Source of the DNA: Candidatus Ozemibacteraceae bacterium
GTDB taxonomy: Bacteria > Muiribacteriota > Ozemobacteria > Ozemobacterales > Ozemobacteraceae
Direction: 5' to 3'
NCBI GenBank assembly: GCA_937998695.1
Contig: CALLCO010000078.1
Span: 1 to 34,674, forward strand
Length of the DNA: 34,674 bases
The notes under the pieces are model-generated. The model was not told where the DNA came from, made no database searches, and was given only the letters and a program-made list of their open reading frames with translations. This document shows, one piece after another, positions 19,658 through 34,674 of this stretch. Positions within the stretch are counted from its first letter, which is position 1. The number at the start of each line of letters is the position of its first letter. A program made the position numbers and the translations under genes.

Positions 19658-21658
19658 ATGACCGGGAAGGATCACCACCCTCGTCCCCCGAGTTCCGCCG
19701 GAGCGCCGGCCAAACTGGCGTTCCATGAAGCCTGGCGGGCCCAGCCGGGCCCCCTGAAGCTGGCGGCCGCCACCGGGACCCGCCAGGGCGGCGTCGTGCT
19801 GGGCGCCGACGGTGTCCTCACCTGGATCGACCACCGGGGCCAGACCCTGTGGCGGGCCGAGGTGGGGGGGGTGTTCCGGTCCGTGAGCGCGGCCGAGACC
19901 CAGGAGGTGCTGGCCGTCCAGGACAGCGGCTCGGCCATTCTGCTCGACGCCACCGGGCAGGTGCAATGGAAGAAACGGGTCTTCCCCGCCATGAGCGGCA
20001 TCATCAGCGGGTCGGGGCAGCACTTCGCCTTCCTGACCCGCGACCCGACGGTCATCCTGGCCGATCGGGCCTCCCGCCCCCGCTGGACCTACCGGAACCT
20101 GCTGAAGCTGCCGGCCGCCCTCGCCATGACCCACGATGGCGAGCTGGTGGCTTTCGCCTGTCAGGACGAGCGCGGGGAAGGGTTGGCCACCGTGGGCCGC
20201 ACCGGCAAACCCGCCGCCTCCTTCATGGGGCTCGATCCGGTGATCGACGTGGCCATCACGGCCGACGGCGAGCATCTGTTCGCCCTCGACCGCGGGGGCG
20301 GGGTGTTCGGCTTCCATGTGCCGACCAGCGCTGGCGTCTGGCGGGCCAAGCTGCCCTTCGAGGCGGTCGGCCTGTCCCATGCCGCGGAAACCCGGCAAAC
20401 CCTTGTCTACAGCCGCACCGGGCGTCTGTGCCTGCTCGACGACCACGGCTTCCCGTTGTGGGAGGAAGAGCTGGGCGGCACGCTGCTGACCGCCCGCCTC
20501 AGCCATGACGGCCAGACGATCTGGCTGGCCACCGCCGAAGGGGCGGTCGTCGGCCTGCAGTCGGGCGCCGCCCGCGATCTGACGCGGGCCGGCTTCGCCG
20601 AGGTCGCCGCCCCTCCCGCCCAACCGGAAACCTGCGCCTTCCAGCGCCGGTGGCTGGCCGACCTGCCGCGGGCGGCCGCCGGGGACCGCCCCCGGGCCCG
20701 CCTCTGGACGGGCGCCGACCAGGTCGAATACGTTCTCCTCTGGGACGGGCAGGCCCAGTTGGCTTGTCTCAACGACCTCGGCGAGGAGATCTGGACCACC
20801 CGCCTGACCGGCGGCCCGGTCCGGGACCTGGCGGTGGATGCCGCCGCCGACCTGGCCATCGTGTTGACCGGCCAGGGGGTGCTCGGGTTCCATCTCGACG
20901 GGTCGGAGGCGTTCCGGTCGCTGGGCACCTTTGCCGAGGTCCACCTGTTCGCCAACGGGGCCTTCCTGCTGGTCGACGAGGTCCGCCGGGTCACTTTCCT
21001 GGCGAACCACCGCCACCCCCCGCAGCCGCTTCCCATCAGCGAACCGGTCCTGCGCCTCGTCGGCACGGCAACTCAGGCCGCCCTGCAGGGGAATGCGGGC
21101 ATCCACCTCGTCGATCAGGACGGCGGGGTGCGCGCCACGGTGCCCACCGGCGGGCCCGGCAGCCGTCTCGGCCTGCTGCCCGGGGAGACCGGATGGGCCT
21201 TGGGAGGGGAAGGCGGGGCGATCTCCTTCCACGCGTGGACAGGAGAGGTGACCTACCGCCAGACGACGGTTGGCGGCACCCCTCCCACGGCCCTTGCGTT
21301 CCATCCTGGCGAGGATGTGGTCTTCCTCGTCTGGGAAGGGACCCCCGATCTGCTGGTCATTCAGAACCGGCTCAAGAGCCGGATCCGGGTGCCGCTGCCC
21401 GCCCCCGTGGCCCACATGGCCTTGCATGCCGAGGGGATCGTCGGGGCGACCACCCTCGATGAACTGCTGCTGATCGATGTGGCGGGAACCCTGCGGGCCC
21501 GATATCCCTATCCCGACCGGTTGCTGGGCTTGTTTCCGTCGGCTGGCAGCCCCGACTTCCACCTGTTGGCCGAGGGGGGCTTCGGCCGGTTCACCGTCCG
21601 GCACCTGGGGGCGGCGCCGTCCGCATCCCACAGGAGCGGCCTCGCCGAAGACGCATGA
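19658..21658 (+). CDS. Cytoplasmic beta-propeller-like protein of unknown function
   Basis: 666 residues without a signal peptide. The sequence is a series of ~40-residue beta-rich units of the PQQ/WD40-like type, each with a turn such as DxxGxxLW: DHRGQTLWRAEV, DATGQVQWKKRV, DHGFPLWEEEL and DLGEEIWTTRL. This suggests a seven- or more-bladed propeller, perhaps two. A Cys/Trp-poor N-terminal ~25 residues precede it. Propellers of this kind usually serve as protein-binding scaffolds. The RBS AGGAAGG supports the ATG. The stop overlaps the start of the acetyltransferase (ATGA), so both proteins are probably made together. Lack of export makes an enzyme of the PQQ dehydrogenase type unlikely. Confidence 0.75.
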   Translation: MTGKDHHPRPPSSAGAPAKLAFHEAWRAQPGPLKLAAATGTRQGGVVLGADGVLTWIDHRGQTLWRAEVGGVFRSVSAAETQEVLAVQDSGSAILLDATGQVQWKKRVFPAMSGIISGSGQHFAFLTRDPTVILADRASRPRWTYRNLLKLPAALAMTHDGELVAFACQDERGEGLATVGRTGKPAASFMGLDPVIDVAITADGEHLFALDRGGGVFGFHVPTSAGVWRAKLPFEAVGLSHAAETRQTLVYSRTGRLCLLDDHGFPLWEEELGGTLLTARLSHDGQTIWLATAEGAVVGLQSGAARDLTRAGFAEVAAPPAQPETCAFQRRWLADLPRAAAGDRPRARLWTGADQVEYVLLWDGQAQLACLNDLGEEIWTTRLTGGPVRDLAVDAAADLAIVLTGQGVLGFHLDGSEAFRSLGTFAEVHLFANGAFLLVDEVRRVTFLANHRHPPQPLPISEPVLRLVGTATQAALQGNAGIHLVDQDGGVRATVPTGGPGSRLGLLPGETGWALGGEGGAISFHAWTGEVTYRQTTVGGTPPTALAFHPGEDVVFLVWEGTPDLLVIQNRLKSRIRVPLPAPVAHMALHAEGIVGATTLDELLLIDVAGTLRARYPYPDRLLGLFPSAGSPDFHLLAEGGFGRFTVRHLGAAPSASHRSGLAEDA

Positions 21659-22131
21659 CCGAACCAGTCGCCGACCGCGCGCCGGTGTTCGAGCGGTTAC
21701 CCGACCCGCCCGCCTGGGCCGACCTGGAGGCCTTCGCCGCCCTCGACCGCGAAGCGTTCGCCGCCGACGGTCTGACCGCCGGCAATCTGCGATTGGTGAG
21801 CCTCGCTGGCCGCCTCTACATCGCCCGTCTGGAGGGCCAGGTCGCCGGCCAGGCGGTCGTGCTGGGTCGCCTCGACGGCCCGGGGGCCTTTCTGCTGGGG
21901 TTGGCGGTCGGGCGCGTCTGGCGGGGCCGGCAGGTGGGCCGGGGTCTCCTGCGGTTCGTGCTCGCCGATCTGGCGGCGGCCGAGGCCCCGTTCCTGGAAC
22001 TGACCGTCGACCCTGCCAACACCCCGGCCGTGACCTTGTACGAAAAGGAAGGCTTTCACCGGGAACGGCTCGTTCCCGATCTGCTGGGGCCCGGCAAGCC
22101 GCGACTCATCATGCGGCGATCCCTGCCCTGA
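21655..22131 (+). CDS. GNAT-family N-acetyltransferase
   Basis: 158 residues, the common length of RimI-like GNAT enzymes. The acetyl-CoA pyrophosphate loop is VWRGRQVGRGLL (88-99, R/QxxGxG), and the C-terminal motif VDPANTPAVTLYEKEGF (118-134) is typical of RimI-type protein acetyltransferases. The target is unknown. Translation is coupled to the propeller gene by a 4-base overlap, so the propeller could present or recognise the substrate (inference). Confidence 0.88.
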   Translation: MTEPVADRAPVFERLPDPPAWADLEAFAALDREAFAADGLTAGNLRLVSLAGRLYIARLEGQVAGQAVVLGRLDGPGAFLLGLAVGRVWRGRQVGRGLLRFVLADLAAAEAPFLELTVDPANTPAVTLYEKEGFHRERLVPDLLGPGKPRLIMRRSLP

Positions 22132-22166
22132 TACGTCGGGCCCTCCCGGGCCCCAAGGAGAATCCC

Positions 22167-23324
22167 ATGCACCGTTCATCCCGCTCCTTCAGCATCGCCG
22201 GCGTGTGGCGCCCGGGCCGCCCGGCGGAATTCCTCTCCTGCCTCGGTCAAGCCGCTTGGCGTCACGGGCCCATGGGGGGTGGCCCCCTGGTGAAAGGGTC
22301 CGGCGAAATCCGGCCTCGACCGGCGCTGGGCCACGGGCACCAACGACCGGATGGCCCCACTCCCTGGGGACTGGCCGGTCCGGCGACGGTCGGAGCCGTC
22401 CGCATCGCCCCCTGCCGGGGGGGGGGGCGTGCCGTGCTCCTGGCCGGGGTCTTGGCCTCCCTCCTGCTGACCCTCGCCTCCGCCGTCGAGGCGCGGCCGC
22501 GGGTGGCCGTGCTTCCCTTCAAGACAGGCGCGGGGTTCGACTACCCGCTGGGCGAGGGCTTGGCCCAGTTGCTGCGCAAGCGGATCATGGAGACCGGCAA
22601 GGTCCAGGTCGTCGATCGCGAAGACCTGCACAACATGAAGGGCGAACTGCAACTCGCCAACGATGGCTATTTCGATCCTTCCACCTTCCCCGAGAAGGGG
22701 GGGTTCCAGGGCGCCGACTACCTGATCGTGGGCCGGGTGCTCGACTTCGGGCACTATTCGCGCGACACCACGCTGGGCGCGCTGTCCAGCATGGTGCAGG
22801 TGCAGGGGCTGCAGCACAAGAAGACGACCGCCTACGTGCGCCTGGGCATCGAGGTGATCGACCTCGCCACCGGCCGTCTGGCGCTCTCGGAGGAAGCCGA
22901 GGGGAAGAACCAGACCTCCGGGGCCATCCTGATGGCCGGTGATCTGAAGAAGATCTTCGTCGGCGGGCTGAAGGTCGGCAACTTGCAGTTCGACAACTCC
23001 ATGATCGGCCGCGCCACCAAGCAGTCGCTCGACCGCCTGATCGGCCGTCTGGCCGCGCTGTTCGTCAAGGAGGCCAAGGTGCTGGCGGTCAGCCCCGAGG
23101 GGATCGTCATCGACATGGGGGCGAGCTCGGGTTTGCAGGTCGGCATGAAGGGCCGGATCTTCGCCACGCGTGAGATCAAAAACACCGCCGGCCGCGTCGT
23201 CTGGAAGTCGCGGCGCCAGGTGGCGGAAGGCGTAGTGGCCGAGGTGCAGCCCGAGGATGCCCTGTTGCACTGCCCGGCGACCGGCGAGCTCAAGGAGGGC
23301 GACGTCGTCATTTTTGACCAATGA
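22167..23324 (+). CDS. CsgG/FlgT-like exported protein with long N-terminal extension
   Basis: 385 residues from the ATG at 22167, which has a good RBS (AAGGAG). Residues 1-85 are Gly/Pro/Arg-rich and unlike a folded domain; a hydrophobic signal segment follows (~89-108, ending VEA-RP). The mature part starts RPRVAVLPFKTG, typical of the CsgG-like fold found in curli secretion proteins and flagellar FlgT, and continues with VDREDL, GADYLIVGRV and AYVRLGIEVIDLATGRL (~110-300). The C-terminal ~80 residues resemble the FlgT C-terminal beta domain. No lipobox Cys follows the signal. An 11-G run (22417-22427) falls just before the signal segment and could shift the frame. The link to flagella is suggestive, not shown. 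Confidence 0.72.
   Translation: MHRSSRSFSIAGVWRPGRPAEFLSCLGQAAWRHGPMGGGPLVKGSGEIRPRPALGHGHQRPDGPTPWGLAGPATVGAVRIAPCRGGGRAVLLAGVLASLLLTLASAVEARPRVAVLPFKTGAGFDYPLGEGLAQLLRKRIMETGKVQVVDREDLHNMKGELQLANDGYFDPSTFPEKGGFQGADYLIVGRVLDFGHYSRDTTLGALSSMVQVQGLQHKKTTAYVRLGIEVIDLATGRLALSEEAEGKNQTSGAILMAGDLKKIFVGGLKVGNLQFDNSMIGRATKQSLDRLIGRLAALFVKEAKVLAVSPEGIVIDMGASSGLQVGMKGRIFATREIKNTAGRVVWKSRRQVAEGVVAEVQPEDALLHCPATGELKEGDVVIFDQ
22417..22427 (+). repeat. Poly-G tract of 11 bases inside the CsgG/FlgT-like gene
   Basis: Eleven consecutive G residues encode about residues 84-87, directly before the hydrophobic export segment. As given, the frame is open through it. Runs of this length are slippage-prone in replication and sequencing. 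Confidence 0.9.
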
Positions 23325-23594
23325 CCCGCCTGAAGGCAAGCGATGGCCAGCCTCGTCCTCTGTCATCCTCGACGCGGGGGGGCCGCTCCTGTCGCTGCTG
23401 CGGTGGTTTTGGGGAGCCGCAGGCGGGAAAACCACAAAATCCTCGGTGACGGAGGGCTGGCTGGCTGCCCGGAAGACATGGGGATTCCTCCAGGGCGGAA
23501 AAAGGAAACAAGGATAGTTCCCCCTGGTGGGTTGGCGGGCCAAAGCCCCTTCGGCTGGTGTGGGCGCGGACCATGGTGGTTGAATGACCGACCG

Positions 23595-24776
23595 ATGGCG
23601 GGGCGAGGGCGGCGGGCCGGGCTTGTGGTGGCGGGTTTGACCGGCCGAAGGATCGTGGTGTGTCTGGGGCTGGTGGTCTTTCTTCTCGGGGGGATGCCCG
23701 CCCCAGGGGCCGGATCCGCCGCCCCGACGATTCCGGAGGGCCCCGACTATGGCCGGGAAGAGCATTGGGCGGCGCTTCCCTGGAAAGCGGATGGCGCCGA
23801 TTTTCTGCCGGATGGGGTGGCTGGGTTGGTCGATGGGCAGGCCACAGCGGCGGTCGATACGTTTTTCATCCACCCCACGACCTGTCTCGACGAAACGGTG
23901 CGCAACGCTGGCTTGGATGAGGCCGCGGTCAACCTGCTCACCGACCGGGGGGCGCTGCGGTTCCAGGCGAGCGCGTTCAACGGAGTGACGCGGGTTTTCG
24001 CCCCCCGGTACCGGCAGGCGTCGCTGGGCTCTTTTCTCGACCGTACCGGGGCGGGGAAAGCCGCTCTCGACCTGGCCTACGAGGACGTGCGGGCGGCTTT
24101 CCGCCAGTATCTGGCGCGGTACCGGCAGGGACGGCCGTTTGTGATCGCCGGGCACAGCCAGGGAACGGCCCTGGCCATCCGCTTGCTCAACGAGTTCGTG
24201 GTCGGCCAGCCCCTGGCCAAGGATCTGGTGGCGGCCTGGCTGCCGGGGCAGTATGTCGGGCGGGACAGTTTCGATGGCCTGCCATTCCTGCGCCGGCCTG
24301 ATGAGACCGGTGGGTTCGTGACCTGGGCCACCGTGGCGCCGGGGGCAGGGCCCCACCTGGTTTGCGGCTGGACGGCCGATGAGAGGTTTCCACCCTTTAC
24401 GGTCAACACGGCTTTTCCATTGGCCATCAACCCCCTGACCTGGGATGCCGACCAGCCGGCGGTCGCCTCCTTCCCCAACCCCGGGGCGCTGCCGGACGTA
24501 TCACCCCATCTGCCGGAGCCGGGCCCGCTGGTCCGCGACCCGTTCGATGCCCGGGTGGTCGACGGACTGGTGGAGGTCGCGATGCCCCGCACGCTCTGGT
24601 ATGAAGAGCAATTCAACGCCGAGGCCGGGGATTTCCATCTGGCCGACATTCCCCTCTTCTGGATGAGCCTCCGGAACAACGTTGCCAGGCGGGTTGAGGG
24701 ATTCCTCCGGAAGAGGAGAGAGGCTCGCGAGCCCCCAAGCATGTTGCCAGGTGATCCTGATTTTCCGGGGAAATAG
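23595..24776 (+). CDS. DUF3089-type alpha/beta hydrolase, exported
   Basis: 393 residues from ATG 23595. A signal or anchor segment (~19-40, with Ala-rich cleavage region before APTIPEG) is followed by features I associate with DUF3089 proteins: DTFFIHPTT (88-96), the nucleophile elbow GHSQG with Ser188 (186-190), and a late segment FHLADIPLFW. Substrate unknown, probably an ester or lipid in the envelope. The start is uncertain: the RBS at 23595 is poor and the frame is open back to an ATG at 23343, whose extra 84 residues look non-coding. It follows the CsgG/FlgT-like gene after 270 bases that hold no other gene. Confidence 0.75.
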   Translation: MAGRGRRAGLVVAGLTGRRIVVCLGLVVFLLGGMPAPGAGSAAPTIPEGPDYGREEHWAALPWKADGADFLPDGVAGLVDGQATAAVDTFFIHPTTCLDETVRNAGLDEAAVNLLTDRGALRFQASAFNGVTRVFAPRYRQASLGSFLDRTGAGKAALDLAYEDVRAAFRQYLARYRQGRPFVIAGHSQGTALAIRLLNEFVVGQPLAKDLVAAWLPGQYVGRDSFDGLPFLRRPDETGGFVTWATVAPGAGPHLVCGWTADERFPPFTVNTAFPLAINPLTWDADQPAVASFPNPGALPDVSPHLPEPGPLVRDPFDARVVDGLVEVAMPRTLWYEEQFNAEAGDFHLADIPLFWMSLRNNVARRVEGFLRKRREAREPPSMLPGDPDFPGK

Positions 24777-24888
24777 CCTTTGTTTCCCATGTTTTGGGGA
24801 AAGAACGCGGTGGTGGGATGGCCTGACAAGGCTCCCGAAGAAGACTCGTGTCAGAAACGGCCTGGCAAAAGCTGATTTTGAGAGGTCC

Positions 24889-24918
24889 TTGCGGGGTACG
24901 CTTTACGTTTGTTAAAAT
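24889..24918 (+). promoter_or_regulatory. Promoter of the glycine-zipper gene
   Basis: TTGCGG (24889-24894) and TAAAAT (24913-24918) are 18 bases apart, in a locally AT-rich stretch about 40 bases upstream of the start codon. Confidence 0.5.
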
Positions 24919-24958
24919 AAAGGAAATTCTATCGAATGCCTCGCCAGAGGAGGTTCCC

Positions 24959-25669
24959 ATGAAAACCGCCAAACGCCCCGTGAGCATGCTGTTGATCCTG
25001 TCGATCGTCACCTCGTTCTTCCTGCTGCCCGCCACTCCGGCCCACGCCGGAATTCTCGGCAGCTTCCTGCATGCCATCCGGCCTCTTGCTGGCATTGCCG
25101 GCAAGGTCGCCGGGGCTGTCATCGGCGCTTCGCTGTGCGGCGCCTTCTGCCCTCCTCTGGGCATGATCGCGGGTGGTGTCATGGGCTGGATTGCCGGCGG
25201 TATCATCACCGGTTATGGCACCAGCAGCCTGGCCAACCTGGCCACTCTGGCCGGTGGCGTGGTGGGCGCCATGGCCCTCGGGCCCGGCGCGGTGGGCATG
25301 GTCGGCGGGTTCCTCCTCGGCGGGTTCCTCGGTCGCATGGCCATGAAACTGTTGCAGGACGTCGATCACACCATGACGGGCGGGATTCTTTTCAAGAAAT
25401 CCGCTACCGGTATCAGGAGCGTCCTAGGCCGTTCCCAGACGCCCTCCTCTTCGGCCTTCACCCCTGCCACCTCGGGCGCCAGTTCGCTGGGCGTGACCGT
25501 CTCCGGTGACCGATCGGCCGAGATTCAGAGTGCCGAAAACAAATACAAGGCGGCCTACCAGAAGTATATCGATGCCACCCAGAAGGGCGACGCCAAGGCT
25601 GCCGCCGAGGCCCACAAGGTCTACCTGAACGCCTACCAGGATTTCCAGAACCTGTCTTCGGGTAAGTAA
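24959..25669 (+). CDS. Exported glycine-zipper protein of unknown function
   Basis: 236 residues. The signal peptide (MKTAKRPVSM, hydrophobic core, AHA-G at about 30) is followed by ~95 Gly/Ala-rich hydrophobic residues (~44-128) with repeated GxxxG spacing, e.g. GVMGWIAGGIITGYG and GMVGGFLLGGFLG, as in glycine-zipper membrane proteins. Two Cys (60, 64) lie in it. The C-terminal ~50 residues (~188-236) are Ala/Lys/Glu/Tyr-rich and probably helical. GAGGAGG decides the ATG at 24959; the frame is open further upstream but crosses the promoter. It probably inserts in or lies against a membrane. No function is known. Confidence 0.82.
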   Translation: MKTAKRPVSMLLILSIVTSFFLLPATPAHAGILGSFLHAIRPLAGIAGKVAGAVIGASLCGAFCPPLGMIAGGVMGWIAGGIITGYGTSSLANLATLAGGVVGAMALGPGAVGMVGGFLLGGFLGRMAMKLLQDVDHTMTGGILFKKSATGIRSVLGRSQTPSSSAFTPATSGASSLGVTVSGDRSAEIQSAENKYKAAYQKYIDATQKGDAKAAAEAHKVYLNAYQDFQNLSSGK

Positions 25670-25704
25670 TCAGCCTCCAATTCCTCTCCGCTTTGCCACG
25701 AACC

Positions 25705-25718
25705 CCCGCTCCGGCGGG
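25705..25718 (+). terminator. Terminator-like hairpin after the glycine-zipper gene
   Basis: CCCGC-TCCG-GCGGG, extended by a GAAC/GTTC pairing on either side, is followed by a T/C-rich stretch. It lies 36 bases after the stop codon. Confidence 0.5.
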
Positions 25719-25858
25719 TGTTCTTCGTCTTCGGGGTCAGGAGTGGCCCCGCGCCTTGTCGATGGATGGGGACAGCTGGTCGGTGAATCCTGTTCCTGTT
25801 GGGTGAGTGAGATTCACCTGAAGCACGGGGTGGCCGGGTCGCGCCTTCGTGAAGAAAC

Positions 25859-25867
25859 TGCTACACT
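25859..25867 (+). promoter_or_regulatory. Extended -10 promoter of the PLD-family gene
   Basis: TGC-TACACT: a TACACT -10 (25862-25867) with the TGn extension, 32 bases before the start codon. No -35 is evident. Confidence 0.4.
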
Positions 25868-25899
25868 GGTGGCGAATTCCAGCTTCAGGAGGTCTGTCG

Positions 25900-27438
25900 A
25901 TGAACCGTCGTCTGATGCTGATCCTGTCCCTGATGGTCCTGATGATAAGCGGTGCGGTGTGGGCCGCTTCCGCCCCCGCAGCCTCGTCGGCCGTTCCCGA
26001 CGCTGGGGCGAACATCGGGGTCGAGGAGTTCTTCGATCGTATCCAGTGCAATACCTTTGACCCGCAGGCCCTGGTCAGGTTCTTGCCGGAAAACGTGCCG
26101 GCCTGGTATGCCCGGTGGGCCATCATGGACAACGCCAAGTCGTCCATTGACACCACCTATTTCATTGTCGAGCAGGACATCTTCGGGCACAGCATGCTGG
26201 GCATGCTGCTCAAGAAGGCCCGCGAGGGGCTCAAGATCCGGATCATGCTCGACGCTCGCGGTACCAAGACCCTGACCCGCACCTTCTTCGGGCAGGATGT
26301 CATGCAGGAACTGAGCAAGTTCCCCAACGTGACGATCAAGACCTTCAACCCGGTCAGCTCCAACCTCTTGCAGGCCTTTGCCGACATCCGGAACATCGTG
26401 GCCAGCAACCACGACAAGATCCTGCTGGTCGACGATGAATACGTCATCACCGGGGGCCGCAACATTTCCAAGAACTATTTCGTCGATCCTCGCGATCTGC
26501 CGACCGTCTACCGTGATACCGACGTGCTGATCAAGAGCAAGATCGTGGCGAAGCAGACCAAGCAGGCCTTCGACGAGGAATTCGCCCAGCACAGCAACTT
26601 CAAGTTCAGCGGCGACCTGTTTGGCAACTGGAAGGACATGCACCGGGAGCTCGATCTCGCCTACCACTGCATGCGGCGCTATCTGCTCGGCCAGGGGCTG
26701 TTCCAGGTCGATCCGGCGAAATTTTCCAAGGACATGGTGGCGATCGTCGGGAAGTACAACAAGGAACTGGCGACCTACAAACACCTTCCGGGCTATGCGG
26801 CCTTCCGGCTGTTCGAGGGACAGCGGCCCATGGCCGCCCGGTTGCTCGACAAGCATTCCAAGAAGGGGTTCCGCAACGATATTACCTGGAACTTGATCTC
26901 CTTCTTCAACACCGCCAAGAGCGAGATCCTGATCCAGAACCCTTACGTCGTGCTTACCCCTGAAATGGAAGCCGCCATCAAGCGGGCCAGCAAGCGCGGC
27001 GTCAAGGTCATCATCCAGACCAACAGCCCGATGAGCAGCGACAGCCTGCTGACCCAGGCCATGTTCATCGGCGACTGGAAGAAGATCCTGGCAGAGAACC
27101 CGGGGCTGCGCATCTTCGCCTACAAGCTGACCAACAAGCTGCACTCCAAGGTTTTCGTCTTCGACCGCAAGGTGGCCGTCATCGGCACCTACAACATGGA
27201 TTTCATCAGCGAACAGGTCAATTCCGAGCAGGTGGCGGTCATCAAGTCACCCGCCTTTGCCACCCAGGTGGCCAAGAAGATCGAACAGGACATGGCCAAC
27301 TCGTTCGAATACAAGGTCAAAGTCGAGCCCAACGGCACCATCACGACCATTTTCGGGCCTGAGACCCATTCCGACCCGAAGGTGATGAGCCGCTTGCAGA
27401 TGCTCTTGAAGCTGGGCTGGCTGCGTCCTTTGATCTGA
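25900..27438 (+). CDS. Exported phospholipase-D-superfamily protein (two HKD motifs)
   Basis: 512 residues. A signal peptide (~1-24, AVWAASA) targets it to the periplasm. Both HxKx4D motifs are intact: His171-Lys173-Asp178 (followed by GGRN) and His415-Lys417-Asp422 (followed by GTYN), the arrangement of cardiolipin synthases, phospholipases D and related transphosphatidylases. The region between motifs (~200-340) is a larger insert than in cardiolipin synthase. The absence of N-terminal membrane spans makes a soluble periplasmic enzyme likely; the substrate could be phospholipid or, less likely, nucleic acid. AGGAGG (25887-25892) fixes the ATG; an upstream in-frame ATG at 25849 precedes the promoter. 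A strong hairpin follows the gene. Confidence 0.88.
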   Translation: MNRRLMLILSLMVLMISGAVWAASAPAASSAVPDAGANIGVEEFFDRIQCNTFDPQALVRFLPENVPAWYARWAIMDNAKSSIDTTYFIVEQDIFGHSMLGMLLKKAREGLKIRIMLDARGTKTLTRTFFGQDVMQELSKFPNVTIKTFNPVSSNLLQAFADIRNIVASNHDKILLVDDEYVITGGRNISKNYFVDPRDLPTVYRDTDVLIKSKIVAKQTKQAFDEEFAQHSNFKFSGDLFGNWKDMHRELDLAYHCMRRYLLGQGLFQVDPAKFSKDMVAIVGKYNKELATYKHLPGYAAFRLFEGQRPMAARLLDKHSKKGFRNDITWNLISFFNTAKSEILIQNPYVVLTPEMEAAIKRASKRGVKVIIQTNSPMSSDSLLTQAMFIGDWKKILAENPGLRIFAYKLTNKLHSKVFVFDRKVAVIGTYNMDFISEQVNSEQVAVIKSPAFATQVAKKIEQDMANSFEYKVKVEPNGTITTIFGPETHSDPKVMSRLQMLLKLGWLRPLI

Positions 27439-27567: not shown

Positions 27568-27594
27568 TAAAGTTTTTCCAAGATATGCCGATAC
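27568..27594 (+). promoter_or_regulatory. Near-consensus sigma-28 (FliA) promoter
   Basis: TAAAGTTT (27568-27575), then 11 bases, then GCCGATAC (27587-27594). The enteric FliA consensus is TAAAGTTT-N11-GCCGATAA, so 15 of 16 positions and the spacing match. Transcription should start near 27600, on the + strand, toward the octapeptide-repeat gene. It is the only such match I found in the intergenic regions. Confidence 0.8.
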
Positions 27595-27599
27595 CTTTA

Positions 27600-28021
27600 A
27601 AGAGGGCAAAGGATTGCCCGTAAAAGCCAAGGTTGATGGGCCAGTTTGTCCATCACCGCGAGGATGGATTTCGGAATGTGCATGGATGCCAGGGGAACTT
27701 CCTCCCTTTCGAACGCGCTGCAGGCTTGGCGCTGCTGGCTTCCCGATTTTCCTCGGAAGGTTTTGGGCGGGGCTGCTGGTTCAGTGGCATTGCGACTTGG
27801 TTTCAGGCGTAGAAAACCTTCGCCCTTTCCACCCAGGAGCACCTGTCACCCCATCCCCCCTGACTGCGGACATACTCCTGGAACAATCACCATGGGGAAA
27901 TTGATTCTTTTGGTCTATCCATCTTGGCTTGCCGATGGTCAAGGGGAAACCCTTAGCGATTTTGCTGTTGACCAGAGAAAATCAACCTGCGGGAATTCCG
28001 GCTCGCAAAAAGGGGATTGAC
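27600..28021 (+). other. Long leader between sigma-28 promoter and repeat gene
   Basis: About 420 bases with no convincing gene. The frame at 27646-28020 and others have no RBS, poor start codons and no recognisable content. If the sigma-28 promoter drives the repeat gene, this is an unusually long 5' UTR; a small RNA or an unrecognised short gene here is possible. Confidence 0.4.
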
Positions 28022-29401
28022 ATGTCTATCGTTATTGGTATGACCACCTCACAGATTGCGGCTTTAACCCCGACGCAAATTGCCAATCTGGGAACGGCCG
28101 ATTTCAAAGCGATGACGACGGCTCAGGTGGCTGCTTTGACCAGCAACCAGATCACTGCCATCGAAACCCGTGACCTGGTGGTTCTGAACTCCAGCCAGGT
28201 CCAAGCCATTCAGACGTATAACATTCAGCTGCTGACCGCCAACCAGGCCAAGGCCCTGACCACCGCCCAGGTGAAGGCGTTGACCGACACCCAGGTGAAG
28301 GCGTTGACGACAGCCAACCTGTCCTCCCTCTCGACGAGTCAAATTCAAGCTATCGATCCTTCCGATCTCACAGGGCTGACCACCGACCAGGTTGCTGCCT
28401 TCACCAGCAGCCAGAGTTCGGCATTCACCACCTCCCAGCTGGCGGCGCTGACCACCGCGCAGATTCAAGCTTTCGGCACCGAAGATATTCAAGCCCTCAC
28501 CACCTCTCAGGTGAAAGGTCTGACCTCGTCTCAGGTGGGGGCGTTGACGACCGCGCAGTTGGCGGCCATGGAGACCATCGACCTGGCGGCACTGAGCACC
28601 GCCCAGATCGTCGGCATGTCGACCGCCAATATCGCGGCGTTGACCACCGCCCAGGCGCAGGCGCTGACTTCGGCCCAGCTGAAGGCCCTGGGCAGCGACC
28701 AGATCAAGGCGTTCACCACCAGCGGGCTGGCGGCCCTGTCGACCACCGCCATCAAGGGCATCGACGGTTCCGATCTGGCCGCCCTGTCGACGACGCAGAT
28801 GGCTGCGGTCACGACCACGCAGATTGGTGCGCTCACCACCTCCCAACTTGGCTCTTTGACTACCTCCCAGATTCAGGCGATCGGTACCGCTGGCGTCAAA
28901 GCCCTGGCGACGTCCCAGATGTCCGCCTTGTCCACCGCGCAGATAGCCGCTCTGACCACCGCTCAAGTGGCTGCCCTGGAAACCCAGGATCTGGCGGCCC
29001 TTAGCTCGACTCAGGTGACCGGCTTCACCACGAGTCAGATCCAAGCAGGGTTCACGACGGCCCAGATCGTGGCGTTGACGACGAATCAATTCAAAGCCCT
29101 GCTAGCCTCTCAAATTGCCGCATTGACCACGCAACAAGTGCAGGCGATCGAGTCCCAGGATCTGCAAGCCCTCACATCTTCCCAGATCTCAGCCATGACG
29201 ACGTCGCAGATTCAGAATGGTTTGACCACCTCCCAGATCCCGGTGCTGAAAACGAGCCAGATACCCGCTCTGACCACGACGCAGATTCAGGCTTTGACCA
29301 CTCTGCAGATCAGCAACATGACTACAGCCCAGGTGCAAGCCCTCACGTCTTCCCAGATCGCCGCCATGTCCACGGCCCAGATTGCCGCTCTTCCCATCTG
29401 A
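28022..29401 (+). CDS. Thr/Ser-rich octapeptide-repeat solenoid protein
   Basis: 459 residues, of which nearly all are ~56 tandem octapeptides of the pattern [T/S]-[T/S]-x-Q-[I/V]-x-A-[L/M/F], such as TTAQIQAL. Two units carry an extra residue (ending AGF and NGL). At intervals a unit has Asp at position 4 in place of Gln (ETRDLVVL, DPSDLTGL, GTEDIQAL, ETIDLAAL, DGSDLAAL, ETQDLAAL), spaced 8, 5, 4, 8, 9 units, so a 17-unit (136-residue) block is repeated. There is no Cys, His or Trp and no signal peptide or membrane segment. ATG 28022 follows an AAAAGGGG RBS. Regular Leu/Ile at positions 5 and 8 implies a solenoid. Lies downstream of a sigma-28 promoter and before a GT41 glycosyltransferase. 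Function unknown. Confidence 0.85.
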   Translation: MSIVIGMTTSQIAALTPTQIANLGTADFKAMTTAQVAALTSNQITAIETRDLVVLNSSQVQAIQTYNIQLLTANQAKALTTAQVKALTDTQVKALTTANLSSLSTSQIQAIDPSDLTGLTTDQVAAFTSSQSSAFTTSQLAALTTAQIQAFGTEDIQALTTSQVKGLTSSQVGALTTAQLAAMETIDLAALSTAQIVGMSTANIAALTTAQAQALTSAQLKALGSDQIKAFTTSGLAALSTTAIKGIDGSDLAALSTTQMAAVTTTQIGALTTSQLGSLTTSQIQAIGTAGVKALATSQMSALSTAQIAALTTAQVAALETQDLAALSSTQVTGFTTSQIQAGFTTAQIVALTTNQFKALLASQIAALTTQQVQAIESQDLQALTSSQISAMTTSQIQNGLTTSQIPVLKTSQIPALTTTQIQALTTLQISNMTTAQVQALTSSQIAAMSTAQIAALPI

Positions 29402-29445
29402 GAAAGCATTGAGTCTGGCGACATATCGTGGATGGACTCGGCGAT

Positions 29446-29470
29446 GACAACCCCCGACCAGGGGGTTGTC
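29446..29470 (+). terminator. Hairpin between the repeat gene and the GT41 gene
   Basis: GACAACCCCC-GACCA-GGGGGTTGTC is a perfect 10-bp stem with a 5-base loop, 44 bases after the repeat gene and ending 13 bases before the glycosyltransferase start. No T run follows. It may end or attenuate the transcript, or occlude the downstream start. Confidence 0.55.
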
Positions 29471-29483
29471 GTGCCTATCGCGG

Positions 29484-31307
29484 ATGCAGGAAATGGAAGG
29501 GGAGATCGCGGAACTGCCTGCTCTTCTCCGCCGAGCTTGGCAGCGGCAACTGAGCCTAACGGCGCTGATCGAAGCTGCTCAGAGTCTGGAGCAGGCTGGG
29601 CAGCACGTGCCGGCCATCATCTTGTATCAGACCTGGCTGCAACGCGGTGGTTCGCCCATGGCCCATATCGCCTGGTACAACCTCGGAGTTCTGCGCTTCA
29701 CTCTGGGAGATTGGCCTGGGGCACAGGAAGCTTATCTTGAGGCGCTGCGGGTCGCCCCCGACTTCTGGCAGGCTCGATTCAATCTTGGGCTGACGTACGA
29801 ACGCTTGGGAAGAATTCCCGAGGCTTTGTCCGAGTGGGAGCGAATAATCGACGCCGGGGATTCCTTGGGCTCCGAGCATGGGGACCTTTTCAAGACCACT
29901 CTCAACAACGTGGGACGTGTCCTTGAAGATCGGCAGCAACCCATGCGGGCCATGGTTGCCCTCACCCGGAGCCTGCTGCTCGATCCCCGGCAGGCCGACG
30001 TCCTCCACCATTGGATCTACCTTCGAGAGAAGATCTGTGCCTGGCCGGTGATCTCCCCTCTTCCTCGCCTCAATTCTGCGCAGGCCCAAGACAAGGTGTC
30101 GGCTCTGGCCCTCCTCAGCCTGACCGACGACCCACAGGCCCAGTTGGCGGCCGCCTGCCGCTATGTGCAGGCCAAGTTCCCGACCCCCGTGTCGCCACTG
30201 CCGGTGGTTTCCCCCTATCATCACCCCCGGATCAGGGTCGGATATTGCTCCTCGGATTTTTGCCTCCATCCAGTTGCCATGCTGACCGTGGAGATGTTCG
30301 AGCTCCATGATCGCGAACGCTTTGCCGTGCATGGGTTCTGCTGGACAACGGTGGGTGACTCTCCATTGCGGCAGCGGGTGATCAAGGCGATGGACCATTT
30401 CACCCTGATTGGGGAACTGTCGGATGAAGAAGCCGCTCGCCAGATTCGGGCACAGGAGATCGACATCTTGGTCGATCTGCATGGGCAGACCCTCGGGGCG
30501 CGGCCGCGCTTGCTGGCCTTGCGGCCGGCCCCGATCCAGCTCACCTATTTGGGACTGCCGGCCACCACCGCGTTTCCCTGGATCGATCACGTCATCGCCG
30601 ATCGTTTTGTCCTGCCACCTGAATTGGTGCCATATTTCACGGAAAAGCCCCTCTACATGCCTGAGGTGTTTCAGGTCAGCGACCGACATCGCCGGCCAAG
30701 CGCCGTCCCTTCCCGCCTTGAATGTGGACTGCCGGCCGAGGGGTTCGTCTTCTGCTGTTTCAACAACCCAACCAAGATCACGCCCGAGATGTTTTCTGTC
30801 TGGATGCGCATTCTCACGCGGGTGCCCAACAGCGTGCTGTGGCTGTATGTCGATGACGAGTGGGCGGCAATCCATTTGCGCCAAGAAGCCGCGGTTCGGG
30901 GGGTGAATCCCGATCGCTTGGTATTTGCGCCTCGCGTTCTCCCCGAAGCGTATCTGGCCAGATACCAGGTGGCCGATCTGTTCCTCGATACCTTCCCGTT
31001 CAATGCCGGAACCACGGCCAACGATGCCCTGTGGATGGGCTGTCCGGTGCTGACTCGCAGTGGTCGAGCGTTTGCTTCGCGAATGGCCGGGGCATTGCTG
31101 ACCGCAGCCGGCCTACCGGAACTGATCACCTGGAACTTTGCCGACTATGAAGAGCGCGCGGTGGCTTTGGCCCATGACCCTCCGCAAATTTTGGCTCTAA
31201 GAGCGCATCTCCAGCAGGTGCGCGACCATGGCGTTCTCTTCGACACCCCTCGCTTCGTTCGGCATCTCGAAGCCCGTTATTCGCGGTTGGTAGCCGAACT
31301 GGGTTGA
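29484..31307 (+). CDS. TPR-containing GT41 glycosyltransferase (O-GlcNAc-transferase/SPINDLY-like)
   Basis: 607 residues. The N-terminal ~175 residues contain TPR-like helices (YNLGVLRFTLGDWPGAQEAY at ~65-84, FNLGLTYERLGRIPEALSEW at ~99-118). The catalytic part follows: RVGYCSSDFCLHPVAML (251-267, with the conserved His262), DILVDLHGQTLGARP (327-341), RPAPIQLTYLGLPATT (347-362), CCFNNPTKITPE (424-435, Lys431) and DTFPFNAGTTANDALWMGCPVLT (502-524). GT41 enzymes move a sugar from a nucleotide donor to Ser/Thr in protein; bacterial ones often modify flagellin or adhesins. Donor (GlcNAc, GDP-fucose or other) is not readable. The start is uncertain: ATG 29484 or 29493, neither with a good RBS; an in-frame TTG at 29466 is inside the hairpin. 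Confidence 0.9.
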   Translation: MQEMEGEIAELPALLRRAWQRQLSLTALIEAAQSLEQAGQHVPAIILYQTWLQRGGSPMAHIAWYNLGVLRFTLGDWPGAQEAYLEALRVAPDFWQARFNLGLTYERLGRIPEALSEWERIIDAGDSLGSEHGDLFKTTLNNVGRVLEDRQQPMRAMVALTRSLLLDPRQADVLHHWIYLREKICAWPVISPLPRLNSAQAQDKVSALALLSLTDDPQAQLAAACRYVQAKFPTPVSPLPVVSPYHHPRIRVGYCSSDFCLHPVAMLTVEMFELHDRERFAVHGFCWTTVGDSPLRQRVIKAMDHFTLIGELSDEEAARQIRAQEIDILVDLHGQTLGARPRLLALRPAPIQLTYLGLPATTAFPWIDHVIADRFVLPPELVPYFTEKPLYMPEVFQVSDRHRRPSAVPSRLECGLPAEGFVFCCFNNPTKITPEMFSVWMRILTRVPNSVLWLYVDDEWAAIHLRQEAAVRGVNPDRLVFAPRVLPEAYLARYQVADLFLDTFPFNAGTTANDALWMGCPVLTRSGRAFASRMAGALLTAAGLPELITWNFADYEERAVALAHDPPQILALRAHLQQVRDHGVLFDTPRFVRHLEARYSRLVAELG

Positions 31308-31362
31308 CCCAACGCATCCTTGCCCGAGCCGCTACCGGGTGGCTGTCCATCTCTGGTGGCAG

Positions 31363-32244
31363 TCATCCGATAACGGCCTGCGGGTTTTCCCGCAGAGTCC
31401 GTGCCACCGCCTGGACCATGTCCTGGCGGAGCCGAGTGAAGCAATCGAGAAAGAAGGGATCTCCGCTGGCGGCAAATTGCCGCTTGCACCAGTTGGCAAG
31501 GGGAATCAACCCCGCGGCATGGAAGGTGCGTCGCTGCAGTTCCGGCCAGGAATATTCCCACGCGGCCGTGGCGAACTCGGGATGCAGATGGAGGAAAACC
31601 GAAAACAAGCGCTCTACCAGATACGGAATCACCGGCAGAATCTGGAGGTGGTCAGGGTCGCTGCCAGAGGCGAAGCGAGGCTGCCAGAAAGGATCGCCTG
31701 GTTCCTCCCGCCGGGATTCCAAGAAGGAGAAGATCGGTTCCATGAAGGTAAAATAGGCTTCCCAGAAGGGGCGGCGGGCGACCCAGTAGTTGCAGAATGC
31801 CGTGCTCAGATGGTGATCGACGCTGGCGGCGAGGTCGATGCGATAGCCGAGACTGTCCAGAAGGGTCTGCGCGAGGGTGGTCAATCCAGGATGCCAGGCT
31901 TCTCCCTGTTCCCAGACGTTTCGATAGAAGGCCACCTGAAACACCGCCGGGCTGAACAGGTAGCAGTCGGCGGTTGGGTGGGCACGCAGGAATCCCAGGA
32001 TCTGGTGCGCATCGAGGCCGAGTTTCTCTTTGACCCTCCAACTGAAGAAGCCGGTCAGATCACCGAAAAACCGTTCCGGGTCCTGGTGGGCCTGACGCAT
32101 GACCCAATACTCGCACCATTCCGGGCGGGGGTTGGCGCAGTTGTCCCAGGGGAGCATGCCCGGATCGAGATAGGGCCGTTGGTCCTCACGATAGAAGATC
32201 TGGTGAAGGCGAATCCCCGCGGAGCCGTCAAGAGACGCGGACAT
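31363..32244 (-). CDS. Uncharacterised protein of glycosylation-locus type
   Basis: 293 residues, cytoplasmic by the absence of signal or membrane segments. It opens with IRLHQIFYREDQRPYLDPGM and continues LPWDN...NPRPEWCEYWVMR; this beginning recalls conserved unknown proteins I have seen in glycan gene clusters, but I cannot name the family. It is rich in Trp, Phe, Tyr and His (e.g. CNYWVARRPFWEAYFTFMEPIF), suggestive of a sugar-binding or glycosyltransferase-like fold. The ATG at 32244 overlaps the end of the upstream methyltransferase gene by 17 bases, so it is the third gene of a - strand operon. It ends 55 bases from the convergent GT41 gene. Confidence 0.75.
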   Translation of the reverse strand: MSASLDGSAGIRLHQIFYREDQRPYLDPGMLPWDNCANPRPEWCEYWVMRQAHQDPERFFGDLTGFFSWRVKEKLGLDAHQILGFLRAHPTADCYLFSPAVFQVAFYRNVWEQGEAWHPGLTTLAQTLLDSLGYRIDLAASVDHHLSTAFCNYWVARRPFWEAYFTFMEPIFSFLESRREEPGDPFWQPRFASGSDPDHLQILPVIPYLVERLFSVFLHLHPEFATAAWEYSWPELQRRTFHAAGLIPLANWCKRQFAASGDPFFLDCFTRLRQDMVQAVARTLRENPQAVIG

Positions 32245-32935
32245 GGTTGGCGATCACTTGATCGATCAGGGCCAGCTTTTTCTGATCTTCATTCAAGGCA
32301 CTTGGGTTCAGAATGTTTTCTGTTCCCGCCCGCCGGCCATTCTCGAAATCCGTTTTGGTATCGAGAATGCGGTGGGGAAAAGCAGTCACGTGCGCTTCGT
32401 CACGCAAGAACACGGCCACGAAGTCGTTCCATTGGTCGAAGATCTGCTGACTGGGCTGCTGGCGACTGATATATGATTCCAGCAGCAGGACAGGCATGCC
32501 ATGCCGGCGAGCCCACGTCGTCAGGGCCAGACCGCTGTCGGGGAAGAACCGCCAACAGTCCAATGGATAGCGATGAATCATCCCGTTGGAGGGGGCGTTG
32601 AGATAGAACACGCCGCGGGGTTTCAGCACCCGCATGATTTCCAGGAAGCTTACCCAGAACAGTTCCGAATGTTCGAAACAGGAACTGGAGACAACAATGT
32701 CGGCGGTGCCGTCGGGGAAGGGCAGGACATAGGGATCGGTCAATACCACATCGACTCCTGGTCCGGTTACGAAATCCACGCCAACATACCGAAAGGTCGA
32801 TGGGCAGACCTCTTTGAGTGAGCCATTGACATTCTGGGCGCCGATGTCCAAGACCAGAACCTCGGGCAAATCGGCAAAGGCGGACCGATACGTGTCGAAA
32901 AACTGTTTGCCGTTGAGCATGGCGGAAGGGTGCAT
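32228..32935 (-). CDS. Class I SAM-dependent methyltransferase
   Basis: 235 residues from ATG 32935, which has GGAGG 8 bases upstream. The Rossmann motif I is VLVLDIGAQNVNGS (26-39), the acidic end of strand 2 is VGVDF (51-55), and the post-motif region reads VVSSSCFEHSELFW and MRVLKPRGVFYLNAP (~81-115), as in the Methyltransf_11 type. Motif I lacks the usual GxGxG, having GAQNVNG. The substrate is unknown; the adjacent glycosylation genes make a sugar or nucleotide-sugar plausible. It starts 22 bases after the preceding methyltransferase and overlaps the next gene, so the three form an operon. Confidence 0.85.
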   Translation of the reverse strand: MHPSAMLNGKQFFDTYRSAFADLPEVLVLDIGAQNVNGSLKEVCPSTFRYVGVDFVTGPGVDVVLTDPYVLPFPDGTADIVVSSSCFEHSELFWVSFLEIMRVLKPRGVFYLNAPSNGMIHRYPLDCWRFFPDSGLALTTWARRHGMPVLLLESYISRQQPSQQIFDQWNDFVAVFLRDEAHVTAFPHRILDTKTDFENGRRAGTENILNPSALNEDQKKLALIDQVIANHVRVS

Positions 32936-32957
32936 CGAATGACCTCCGATGGGCGGT

Positions 32958-33680
32958 TCAGGTGGGAGAGCTGCGGAGAGCGGGACCGTTCCACCGCCCG
33001 GGCTGGCGGGCCAGAAAGGCCGTGGCGGCTGGAAAGGCAACGGTAAGGATGGTGACTTCGGCAAAACCGGCGGCCAAGAGGCAGGTCCAGGCGTCGGCGC
33101 CGAATTCGGTCTGCACCATGAAATCACCGGCGGAGGTGGTGGCGGTGCCGTGGTAGCTCGGGCTCAGCCCCTGACGTGAGCGGGTCAGACGCCCGATCAC
33201 GACAGGAACGGTGTAGCAGAGAGCTCCTCCGGGTTTGAGGACGCGTCGGCATTCCGTCAACGCATGGATCGGGTGGGGCACATGTTCGAGGGTATCGGAA
33301 TGTACGACCAGATCGAACCTGCCATCAGGAAAGGGAAGCTGGTGCATGTCCACCTGCGGATAGGTGACAAGGTGATGGCCGCGACACTGTCGCAAGGTTG
33401 GGGTCAGGCTGCCCGCTTCGTTAATTTCGAGGAGCTGGAGATCGGTGCCGGGCGATGCCGCCAGCGCTTCGCGTAGCACCAGCTCCGTGTCCAGGAACCG
33501 GCGGATGGCGTTGGCCAACGCGATCGAGCGCAGATTGGCACGGCACTGCAGGCAGATCTCTCCCTGTTGCCGATTGATGTAATCGACTTCGTACGGAGAA
33601 AGCTGCCAATCGGTGATGAGCTGGGGCCATAAGACAGGAAAGCGGACGAACGCCGTGCCGCCGCAGACTCCGCACTCCAT
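32958..33680 (-). CDS. Class I methyltransferase with N-terminal zinc-ribbon
   Basis: 240 residues from ATG 33680 (GGAGG 8 bases upstream); the frame is open further upstream without an RBS. Cys3-Cys6 and Cys43-Cys46 form a CxxC...CxxC zinc site, a layout often seen in sugar-type methyltransferases of glycan clusters. The catalytic domain has LQLLEINEAGSL (81-92, a degenerate motif I), the FPDGRFDLVVHSDTLEHV segment (117-134) and RVLKPGGALCYTVP (146-159). It is the first gene of the three-gene - strand operon. Which sugar it methylates cannot be read. Confidence 0.83.
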   Translation of the reverse strand: MECGVCGGTAFVRFPVLWPQLITDWQLSPYEVDYINRQQGEICLQCRANLRSIALANAIRRFLDTELVLREALAASPGTDLQLLEINEAGSLTPTLRQCRGHHLVTYPQVDMHQLPFPDGRFDLVVHSDTLEHVPHPIHALTECRRVLKPGGALCYTVPVVIGRLTRSRQGLSPSYHGTATTSAGDFMVQTEFGADAWTCLLAAGFAEVTILTVAFPAATAFLARQPGRWNGPALRSSPT

Positions 33681-33852
33681 CAGGGGTACCTCCGCTTTTT
33701 CTTCGTTGAGCGTGTTGCATGAACACTCCAAACAGCCCGAGGGTATTTGGGTCATCGGGTTGAAGCGTATCTTTTCGAAGTGGGGGTGAAACGATGGACA
33801 TATTCAGGCTCCCTGCAGGTTGCTCCCAAACCAATCGCCCTGGAGGCCGAAC

Positions 33853-34119
33853 ATGTTTTTAAGCATCTTGCACCACGGATGGGGTCTGGGCGGCTATGAG
33901 TACCTCTCCACCAGGGATGAACAAGGCGCCATGATCTTCTGTGTTCGAGCCAAAGCCCAAACGGTCTGCTGTCCTGAATGCGGGCGGGAGCACGTGGGTT
34001 TCCGTGGCGGGAAGGTCCGACGGTTCCGGGCTCTTCCCATTGGAAACAAGCCAGTCTTTATCGAGGCATGGGTTCAGCGTGTCTTTTGGGAGGACTGCAA
34101 GATTGTGGCCGGTGTGGGG
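33853..34119 (+). pseudogene. Truncated ISL3-family transposase remnant
   Basis: The 89 residues from ATG 33853 (GGAGG upstream) resemble the N-terminal zinc-binding region of ISL3-family transposases (IS204/IS1001/IS1096/IS1165 type): VCCPECGREH (38-47) then RRFRALPIGNKPVFIEAWVQRVFW. The family is usually 400 or more residues; here similarity stops near 34110, although the frame runs on to 34224 with unrelated sequence that overlaps the DUF5672 gene. No DDE catalytic domain and no matching terminal repeats were found. It is a decayed fragment within the glycosylation region and marks past rearrangement. Confidence 0.65.
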
Positions 34120-34155
34120 TCCCGTTGGCCGGGGCAGCCTGCTGGCGGGCCGTTT

Positions 34156-34674
34156 TCACCGGCACGGGGGACATTGGCTCGCCGGGGGAACCGCCGGCGC
34201 GGCGGGTTCATGAGACGGCGATGAGGGGGGCGCCGAGTCCCCTGCTAGGGCCGAGTCGTCTTCTGCCGCTTGAACGATGATGCCCTTCCAGAACTCAAGG
34301 TCATACTTCCACCAAGCATGACACCCCGTGGGGATGGTTCGGTTGTGCAGTTCGAAATATTTCCGGGGTTCTCGTTCGAGGGCGAAGCGGGAAGCAACCA
34401 TTTGGTTGGGAAGACGAAAGGTGGATGAGACGGTGCCGGCAAATCCGTAGAAAAGGTCTTCGCTGCTGTTAGATCGGAGCCAGTACTCACGCATGTCTCC
34501 CAGTTCGGTCAGGACTGCTCGGGTGCCGGCGATCGCGCGTAGGCTGAAGCCGCCATTGCCCACGTAGGTTTTAACCGGAATTCCCCCATGGCCGGCGAAG
34601 CGGCCGAAATCGAGGCGAACTTCCAGACCGCCGGGCCATGGTGCCCCGAGGAAATCATACCCGGCGCGCATCCA
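34156..34674 (-). CDS. DUF5672-family protein (partial, N-terminus outside window)
   Basis: About 172 C-terminal residues are visible; the frame runs off the right edge, so the beginning is missing. YDFLGAPWP and VGNGGFSLR are the signatures I associate with DUF5672, a family found in glycan-synthesis clusters and possibly glycosyltransferase-like; SEDLFYGF and the FALEREP segment also fit. The last ~35 residues are a Ser/Pro/Ala-rich low-complexity tail that looks unlike the family, perhaps a result of the nearby ISL3 fragment joining. Same strand as the methyltransferase operon, from which it is separated by the transposase remnant. Confidence 0.75.
   Translation of the reverse strand, partial: WMRAGYDFLGAPWPGGLEVRLDFGRFAGHGGIPVKTYVGNGGFSLRAIAGTRAVLTELGDMREYWLRSNSSEDLFYGFAGTVSSTFRLPNQMVASRFALEREPRKYFELHNRTIPTGCHAWWKYDLEFWKGIIVQAAEDDSALAGDSAPPSSPSHEPAAPAVPPASQCPPCR

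Follow-up and report, generated by a model that had tools for sequence, protein, structure and literature searches.

ALTTAQ-repeat proteins and neighbouring GT41 glycosyltransferases as a candidate O-glycosylation pair in an Ozemibacteraceae bacterium and across phyla

The 34,674-nucleotide contig CALLCO010000078.1 of a Candidatus Ozemibacteraceae bacterium (here the window; contig C78 of a 4.53-Mb genome bin with 324 contigs, 91.8% complete) encodes an ALTTAQ-repeat protein of 459 residues (28022-29401, forward strand), followed 64 bases after its stop codon by the open frame of a TPR-GT41 O-glycosyltransferase, GT41-1 (29466-31307, forward strand; 613 residues when counted from TTG, the first of the start codons listed). 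The linkage between ALTTAQ and GT41 genes is strong and extends across phyla, and its best explanation is dedicated cytoplasmic O-glycosylation of an exported repeat protein. We estimate the probability that these two proteins form such a module, with GT41-1 as the dedicated enzyme and the ALTTAQ protein as an acceptor that is later exported, at about 0.7. The preliminary description of this region had placed together a sigma-28-like site, a Thr/Ser-rich repeat gene, a TPR-GT41 gene, two methyltransferases, an uncharacterised open reading frame and a DUF5672 open reading frame; each of these parts is present. For comparison we used a sibling species of the same genus (Candidatus Ozemobacter, Riflebacteria; genome G012), whose locus is the 20-kb L104.

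The linkage was examined by searching PF20080, the repeat family, and PF13844, the GT41 catalytic domain, independently and genome by genome. PF20080 matches the repeat protein in 17 stretches with 343.2 bits (curated cut-off 26.4) and finds this single place in the window's genome, while GT41-1 is matched by PF13844 with 251.7 bits (cut-off 25). Across the 24 genomes of the order, all eight ALTTAQ-bearing genomes possess a GT41, as against 1 of the 16 others, which is a fragmented bin (Fisher 1.2e-5). The same association is encountered in a Pseudomonas genus (199 genomes), with a GT41 in 12/12 ALTTAQ-bearing versus 6/187 other genomes (Fisher 3.2e-15), and in the Burkholderiales family of an Aquabacterium (200 genomes), with 49/53 versus 75/147 (Fisher 1.3e-8); three of the four exceptions in this family have one to five weak ALTTAQ matches. 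The species counted in these tests are not phylogenetically independent. The co-occurrence that the preliminary description had proposed to check is present in three taxa.

Adjacency at individual loci adds to this picture. The two genes are adjacent in seven of the eight genomes of the order, the contig ending first in the eighth (G019); a single small gene separates them in G002, and they face each other in G002, G018 and G020. A scan of the wider collection provided 72 named loci, drawn from the best 80 of at least 570 matches and often cut by contig ends. A GT41 is present within the locus in 35 of these, and in 32 of the 35 its catalytic domain lies at most 1.8 kb from the repeat array. 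Where at least 4 kb is available downstream of the array (37 loci), 29 hold a GT41, 27 of them on the same strand within 4 kb downstream, the chance expectation being about 0.4 GT41 over all flanks if three GT41 genes are assumed per 5 Mb. We also read eight plasmid records of our own choosing from 59 that matched, and seven show a GT41 nearby (Cereibacter, Rhodovastum, two Pseudomonas, Rhizobium, Niveispirillum and Pseudoroseomonas). Certain plasmid ALTTAQ proteins (L091, 13785-18470; L093, 14001-17099) are annotated as 'ICE nucleation protein' or 'heme utilization protein'.

A tree of 85 GT41 catalytic domains, 59 of which carry a label for an ALTTAQ gene no more than about 10 kb away, includes a clade of 47 (support 100/99) with 44 labelled members, which spans Riflebacteria and Proteobacteria and unites GT41-1 with the Pseudomonas copies. 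The label requires 9 changes on this tree versus a shuffled mean of 22.4, and 0 of 500 shuffles are as low, a clustering that near-copies inflate. A separate branch of 11 is made up of the GT41s of six ALTTAQ-negative Pseudomonas and five unlinked ones from ALTTAQ-positive genomes. Outside the large clade yet beside ALTTAQ genes are the Rhizobium type, the TPR-GT41 fusions of G002, G018 and G020 (an FkbM methyltransferase domain is shown for that of G018), and the GT41 of Pseudomonas G182. The presence of such other subclades beside ALTTAQ genes argues for repeated recruitment of GT41s to this position. Among related architectures, Riflebacteria encode long TPR-GT41 proteins with N-terminal extensions (L085, 4213-8814; L079, 7693-10587; and L102), in which Pfam confirms an FkbM methyltransferase domain in L085 only, and a Pelobacter bin (G047, contig C20, about 51410-61660) has a 3750-residue open frame with several tandem GT41 domains.

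Several observations weigh against the dedicated pair. The loci scanned are the best of a larger set of matches and include several genomes twice, and some of the enzymes behind the local GT41 profile are themselves ALTTAQ-adjacent. Repeat homologues with no GT41 nearby, which the preliminary description had named as the case that would count against it, do occur, albeit in a minority (8 of the 37 loci with sufficient downstream sequence). For the 37 named loci in which the scan found no GT41, 30 genomes were searched whole (L128 being a known positive): 26 carry a GT41 somewhere, in six of them on the same contig at a distance of 1.3 to 10 kb, and four carry none; the other seven such loci belong to genomes already covered. 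There is no GT41 on the contig of the third ALTTAQ gene of G007 (C125), on the contigs of the second, split ALTTAQ gene of G020 (C31/C2), or within the 29-kb stretch read from Shinella HZN7. GT41 is frequent in the Burkholderiales family regardless of ALTTAQ, and among the 18 genomes with both places in the matches listed the two are 10-28 kb apart in 13 and not close in five. A search for type I secretion genes in 19 stretches of the window's own and related genomes gave one weak TolC-like match and no other. Finally, gene neighbourhood alone is no proof of an enzyme-substrate relation. The central proposal of the preliminary description, a GT41 dedicated to the repeat protein, draws support from the co-occurrence in three taxa, the adjacency and the GT41 tree, and is tempered by the minority of loci that lack the enzyme.

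The repeat protein can be read as 56 octapeptides with the consensus L-T-T-(S/A)-Q-(I/V/L)-x-A; Thr or Ser occupies position 2 of 41 octapeptides and position 3 of 50. Ser and Thr together make up 28.3% of its residues versus 9.0 to 11.3% in three other proteins of the window. The claim that every octapeptide offers two or three hydroxyls proved too general, as 12 octads have only one Ser/Thr, 21 have two, 18 three, four have four and one has five (mean 2.3). AlphaFold2 (AF2), run on the single sequence with no alignment, predicts an alpha-helical screw with mostly one short helix of 4-6 residues per octapeptide; the five versions of the model scored 86.9, 83.0, 63.8, 47.9 and 42.2 in predicted local distance difference test (pLDDT), and AF2 can reportedly be over-confident on repeat proteins. 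A beta-solenoid reading of the repeats was rejected on the strength of this model, which contains short helices only. In the model the first Thr mostly precedes the helix and the second opens it, which suggests that the second and third hydroxyl positions would be the likelier exposed acceptors. Foldseek searches with the model returned mesothelin-like matches with template modelling (TM) scores below 0.4, and this kinship was not accepted. The only match below 0.001 among PDB sequences is HeliScrew4 (PDB 9zem, E 3e-13), which likewise consists of octapeptide repeats; the match may rest on repeat composition. The two were compared by sequence alone, and HeliScrew4 has 120 residues as against 459. 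No signal peptide was seen by eye, with no predictor run, and the phage records searched with the repeat protein gave no match. Much larger ALTTAQ open frames are encountered in Pseudomonas G248 (contig C1, about 4421363-4435018; 5506 residues) and in Riflebacteria G006 (contig C9, 84151-95454, equivalent to L080 6151-17454; 3767 residues).

GT41-1 combines TPRs (TPR_2, 48.3 bits) with the GT41 catalytic domain. Its closest solved relative is XcOGT (PDB 2jlb, 307.6 bits), and it matches the 110-kDa subunit of OGT, presumably the human enzyme, with 265.2 bits. The His in its SDFCLHP motif and the Lys in NPTKITP align with both proteins; we take these to be the active-site (catalytic) His and the nucleotide-site Lys, and both are retained in 59/59 of the GT41s labelled near an ALTTAQ gene. 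GT41-1 reads FNAGTT where XcOGT and the OGT subunit read His-Thr-Thr, and the Gly replacing this His is shared by 43 other ALTTAQ-near GT41s, with the His kept in 15. Such a replacement may point to a sugar donor other than UDP-GlcNAc.

Downstream of the pair, on the reverse strand, lie genes that might encode accessory enzymes. The first (31363-32244) specifies an uncharacterised protein of 293 residues; searches of Pfam and PDB sequences (E up to 1 each) and of NCBIfam (E up to 0.1) gave no match. Homologues occur beside the ALTTAQ-GT41 pair in three Pseudomonas loci (L135, L145, L146) as well as in L104 and L114; in Rhodovastum (L092) a gene with a methyltransferase domain partially matches the family. 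Its low-confidence AF2 model (pLDDT 59.2) has as best PDB match the glycosyltransferase WbbM (Foldseek E 8.3e-5), with nucleotidyltransferases and other glycosyltransferases matching less well; by virtue of the WbbM match this protein is probably a second glycosyltransferase, of the GT-A fold. The next gene encodes a class I S-adenosylmethionine (SAM) methyltransferase (32228-32935; PF08241, 39.7 bits) of 235 residues if the start that G012 also has is used, within an open frame that extends to 33127; its homologues stand beside the pair in three Pseudomonas loci (289-298 bits). The order ALTTAQ, GT41, 293-residue protein, methyltransferase is repeated in L135, L145 and L146, and methyltransferase genes resembling the seven queried ones are found in 20/72 loci. 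A second class I SAM methyltransferase (32958-33755; PF08241, 57.2 bits), whose gene order is unchanged in G012, bears an N-terminal Cys-rich, zinc-ribbon-like motif with CxxC pairs found by eye in the translation.

The last gene of the window (34156-34674, reverse strand; PF18922, 77.5 bits) had been described as a DUF5672 protein. The DUF5672 domain is indeed present, but the reading frame is truncated by the contig end and represents the C-terminal part of a second TPR-GT41 fused to DUF5672 (GT41-2), the fusion being whole in G012 (PF13844, 255.3 bits; PF18922, 142.5 bits). The N-terminal part of GT41-2 forms the right end of contig C272 of the window's own genome. As the two ends of this one gene lie at two contig ends, the comparison with G012 indicates that the two contigs are probably genome neighbours, and the window would then adjoin the genes of C272, which include three Flagellin_N matches, an FlgK-like gene and a FliD-like gene, the last named by eye. 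In G012 itself, FlgK- and FlgL-like genes (also named by eye) share a contig with the pair, at a distance of about 19 kb. Upstream of the repeat gene (21477-27438) the window codes for a CsgG/LpoB-like protein, a DUF3089 hydrolase, a Gly/Ala-rich protein of no clear family and a PLD-like protein.

A sigma-28-like promoter of the form TAAA-N15-GCCGATAC is located at 27568-27594 on the forward strand, 427 bases ahead of the start codon of the repeat gene. It agrees with the consensus in 11/12 bases, and 0/200 base shuffles of the 500-base upstream region are as good; the G012 counterpart, inside a conserved block at nearly the same distance, agrees in 12/12. The genome encodes a FliA-type sigma factor (284.9 bits, cut-off 189.6), and the promoter core without mismatch has a single occurrence in the genome. 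Sites of at least 10/12 are found in 10/48 ALTTAQ upstream regions (47 loci and the window, loci short of upstream DNA being excluded) versus 16/858 random flank windows (Fisher 1.9e-7, or 1.4e-6 when one Ozemobacter site is removed), and in 0/96 reversed or complemented controls. Elsewhere in the order there is one full match (second gene of G020) and one of 11/12 (second gene of G007), both with a 16-base spacer, and the remaining genes reach 8/12 to 10/12, a score that 12 to 199 of the 200 shuffles match. Other results speak against a link with motility: genome-wide the pattern with at most one mismatch is not enriched (62 sites versus 82 for the reversed control), no good site was found in the upstream regions of five flagellin-type genes of the same genome (two start positions being inexact) or of its FliD- and FlaG-like genes, and the ALTTAQ genes of Rhodovastum and Cereibacter are without one. 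As to its neighbourhoods, the pair has flagellin genes on its flanks in G006 (L080) and a gammaproteobacterial bin (L171), and flagellar-type export genes are present in Rhodovastum. HlyD/TolC-type secretion matches occur in 23/72 loci, including 17 of the 35 that hold a GT41, whereas flagellar-query matches occur in 2/72; no type I secretion genes were found in the six frames of the whole window or in L104. Taken together, the conserved site, its enrichment upstream of ALTTAQ genes and the presence of FliA give moderate support to the motility link put forward in the preliminary description, a weaker case than that for the pairing with the GT41, and in many other lineages type I secretion genes accompany the pair instead.

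It is unlikely that GT41-1 instead modifies flagellin, with the ALTTAQ gene as a mere neighbour in a flagellar glycosylation region. Such a role would resemble that of FlmG of Caulobacter crescentus, an O-glycosyltransferase for flagellin (PMC7591256), and would accommodate both the flagellin genes around the pair in L080 and L171 and the gene content of C272. However, flagellar-query matches are far rarer in the loci than those of the HlyD/TolC type, and GT41-1 groups with the ALTTAQ-near GT41s of other phyla, the six ALTTAQ-negative Pseudomonas GT41s belonging to the distant branch of 11. The earlier suggestion of a GT41 that modifies flagellin encoded elsewhere suits GT41-2 better than GT41-1, since GT41-2 lies on the flagellin contig and is farther from GT41-1 (264 bits) than are two Pseudomonas ALTTAQ-adjacent GT41s (476 bits each). 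We also regard as improbable a broader specificity, in which the GT41 and the accessory enzymes act on several acceptors, namely the ALTTAQ protein and flagellin or another surface protein. G012, and probably the window's genome too, does have two GT41s, two methyltransferases and flagellar genes in a single region, and two tandem GT41s lie near ALTTAQ in Neoroseomonas and Pseudoroseomonas; yet in Pseudomonas the GT41 is a near neighbour in 11/12 ALTTAQ genomes and a single gene in 10/12, for which one enzyme for one acceptor is simplest. That the two genes merely travel together in surface-polysaccharide islands, the repeat protein being no substrate of the enzyme, is very improbable. Polysaccharide-type genes (rfb, sulfotransferases, gmd, deacetylase) around three of the plasmid loci might speak for it, but the GT41 lies downstream on the same strand within 4 kb in 27 of 37 loci of differing surroundings, and the co-occurrence holds in three taxa.

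The dedicated ALTTAQ-GT41 module may be regarded as of the same general kind as several characterised systems, with differing acceptor and export partners. Like GT41-1 as proposed here, FlmG is a cytoplasmic O-glycosyltransferase acting on protein ahead of export; it differs in having flagellin as its acceptor, as opposed to the repeat-protein candidate and the mostly type I secretion context seen elsewhere, and the two enzymes were set side by side by description, not sequence. HMW1C, an N-glucosyltransferase (NGT), is a GT41-type cytoplasmic enzyme paired with an exported HMW1-type adhesin, and thus resembles the module in its partners. Its modification is, however, N-linked on Asn and its adhesin uses two-partner secretion, and GT41-1 scores 31.4 bits with the NCBIfam NGT equivalog model versus a cut-off of 1000. 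The serine-rich repeat proteins of Gram-positive hosts are O-glycosylated and take the accessory Sec (SecA2) route; they share with the proposed ALTTAQ module a Ser/Thr-rich repeat protein, O-glycosylation and dedicated export, but depend on other glycosyltransferases, hosts and that SecA2 route.

What the data show are the genes, their linkage and co-occurrence in several phyla, the conserved catalytic residues and the promoter match; the repeat protein as acceptor, the residues modified, the sugar donor, the part played by each accessory enzyme and the export are inferred. Made in the cytoplasm, the repeat protein would adopt a screw-like fold in which Thr/Ser residues line up in rows where its short helices begin, and GT41-1 would attach sugars to part of these hydroxyl groups. 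The glycan might then be extended and methylated by the GT-A-like protein and the methyltransferases encoded next to the pair, before export of the glycoprotein, for which a type I system is encoded nearby in many Proteobacteria. In Ozemobacter the sigma-28-like promoter and the probable location in a flagellar and glycosylation region would make the flagellar export apparatus the likelier route. More tentatively, ALTTAQ proteins at large, with open frames of up to 5506 residues, could be widespread glycosylated helical screw fibres, each with its own GT41, for which type I secretion (many Proteobacteria) and flagellar export (Riflebacteria, Rhodovastum and some Gammaproteobacteria) are interchangeable; in the latter case their synthesis would be timed by sigma-28, and they would form a coat or decoration on the flagellum or on the cell as it swims.

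Among the titles and abstract openings listed in our literature searches none describes the ALTTAQ-GT41 pairing, and papers that mention PF20080 deal, to judge by their titles, with other subjects. To our knowledge most bacterial GT41 enzymes have no assigned substrate, and the linkage offers a whole clade of them a testable acceptor in cultivable bacteria. With dozens to hundreds of copies of a similar site, the repeat would suit studies of O-glycosylation and glyco-engineering, and the module would tie protein glycosylation to the control of motility in a little-studied phylum.

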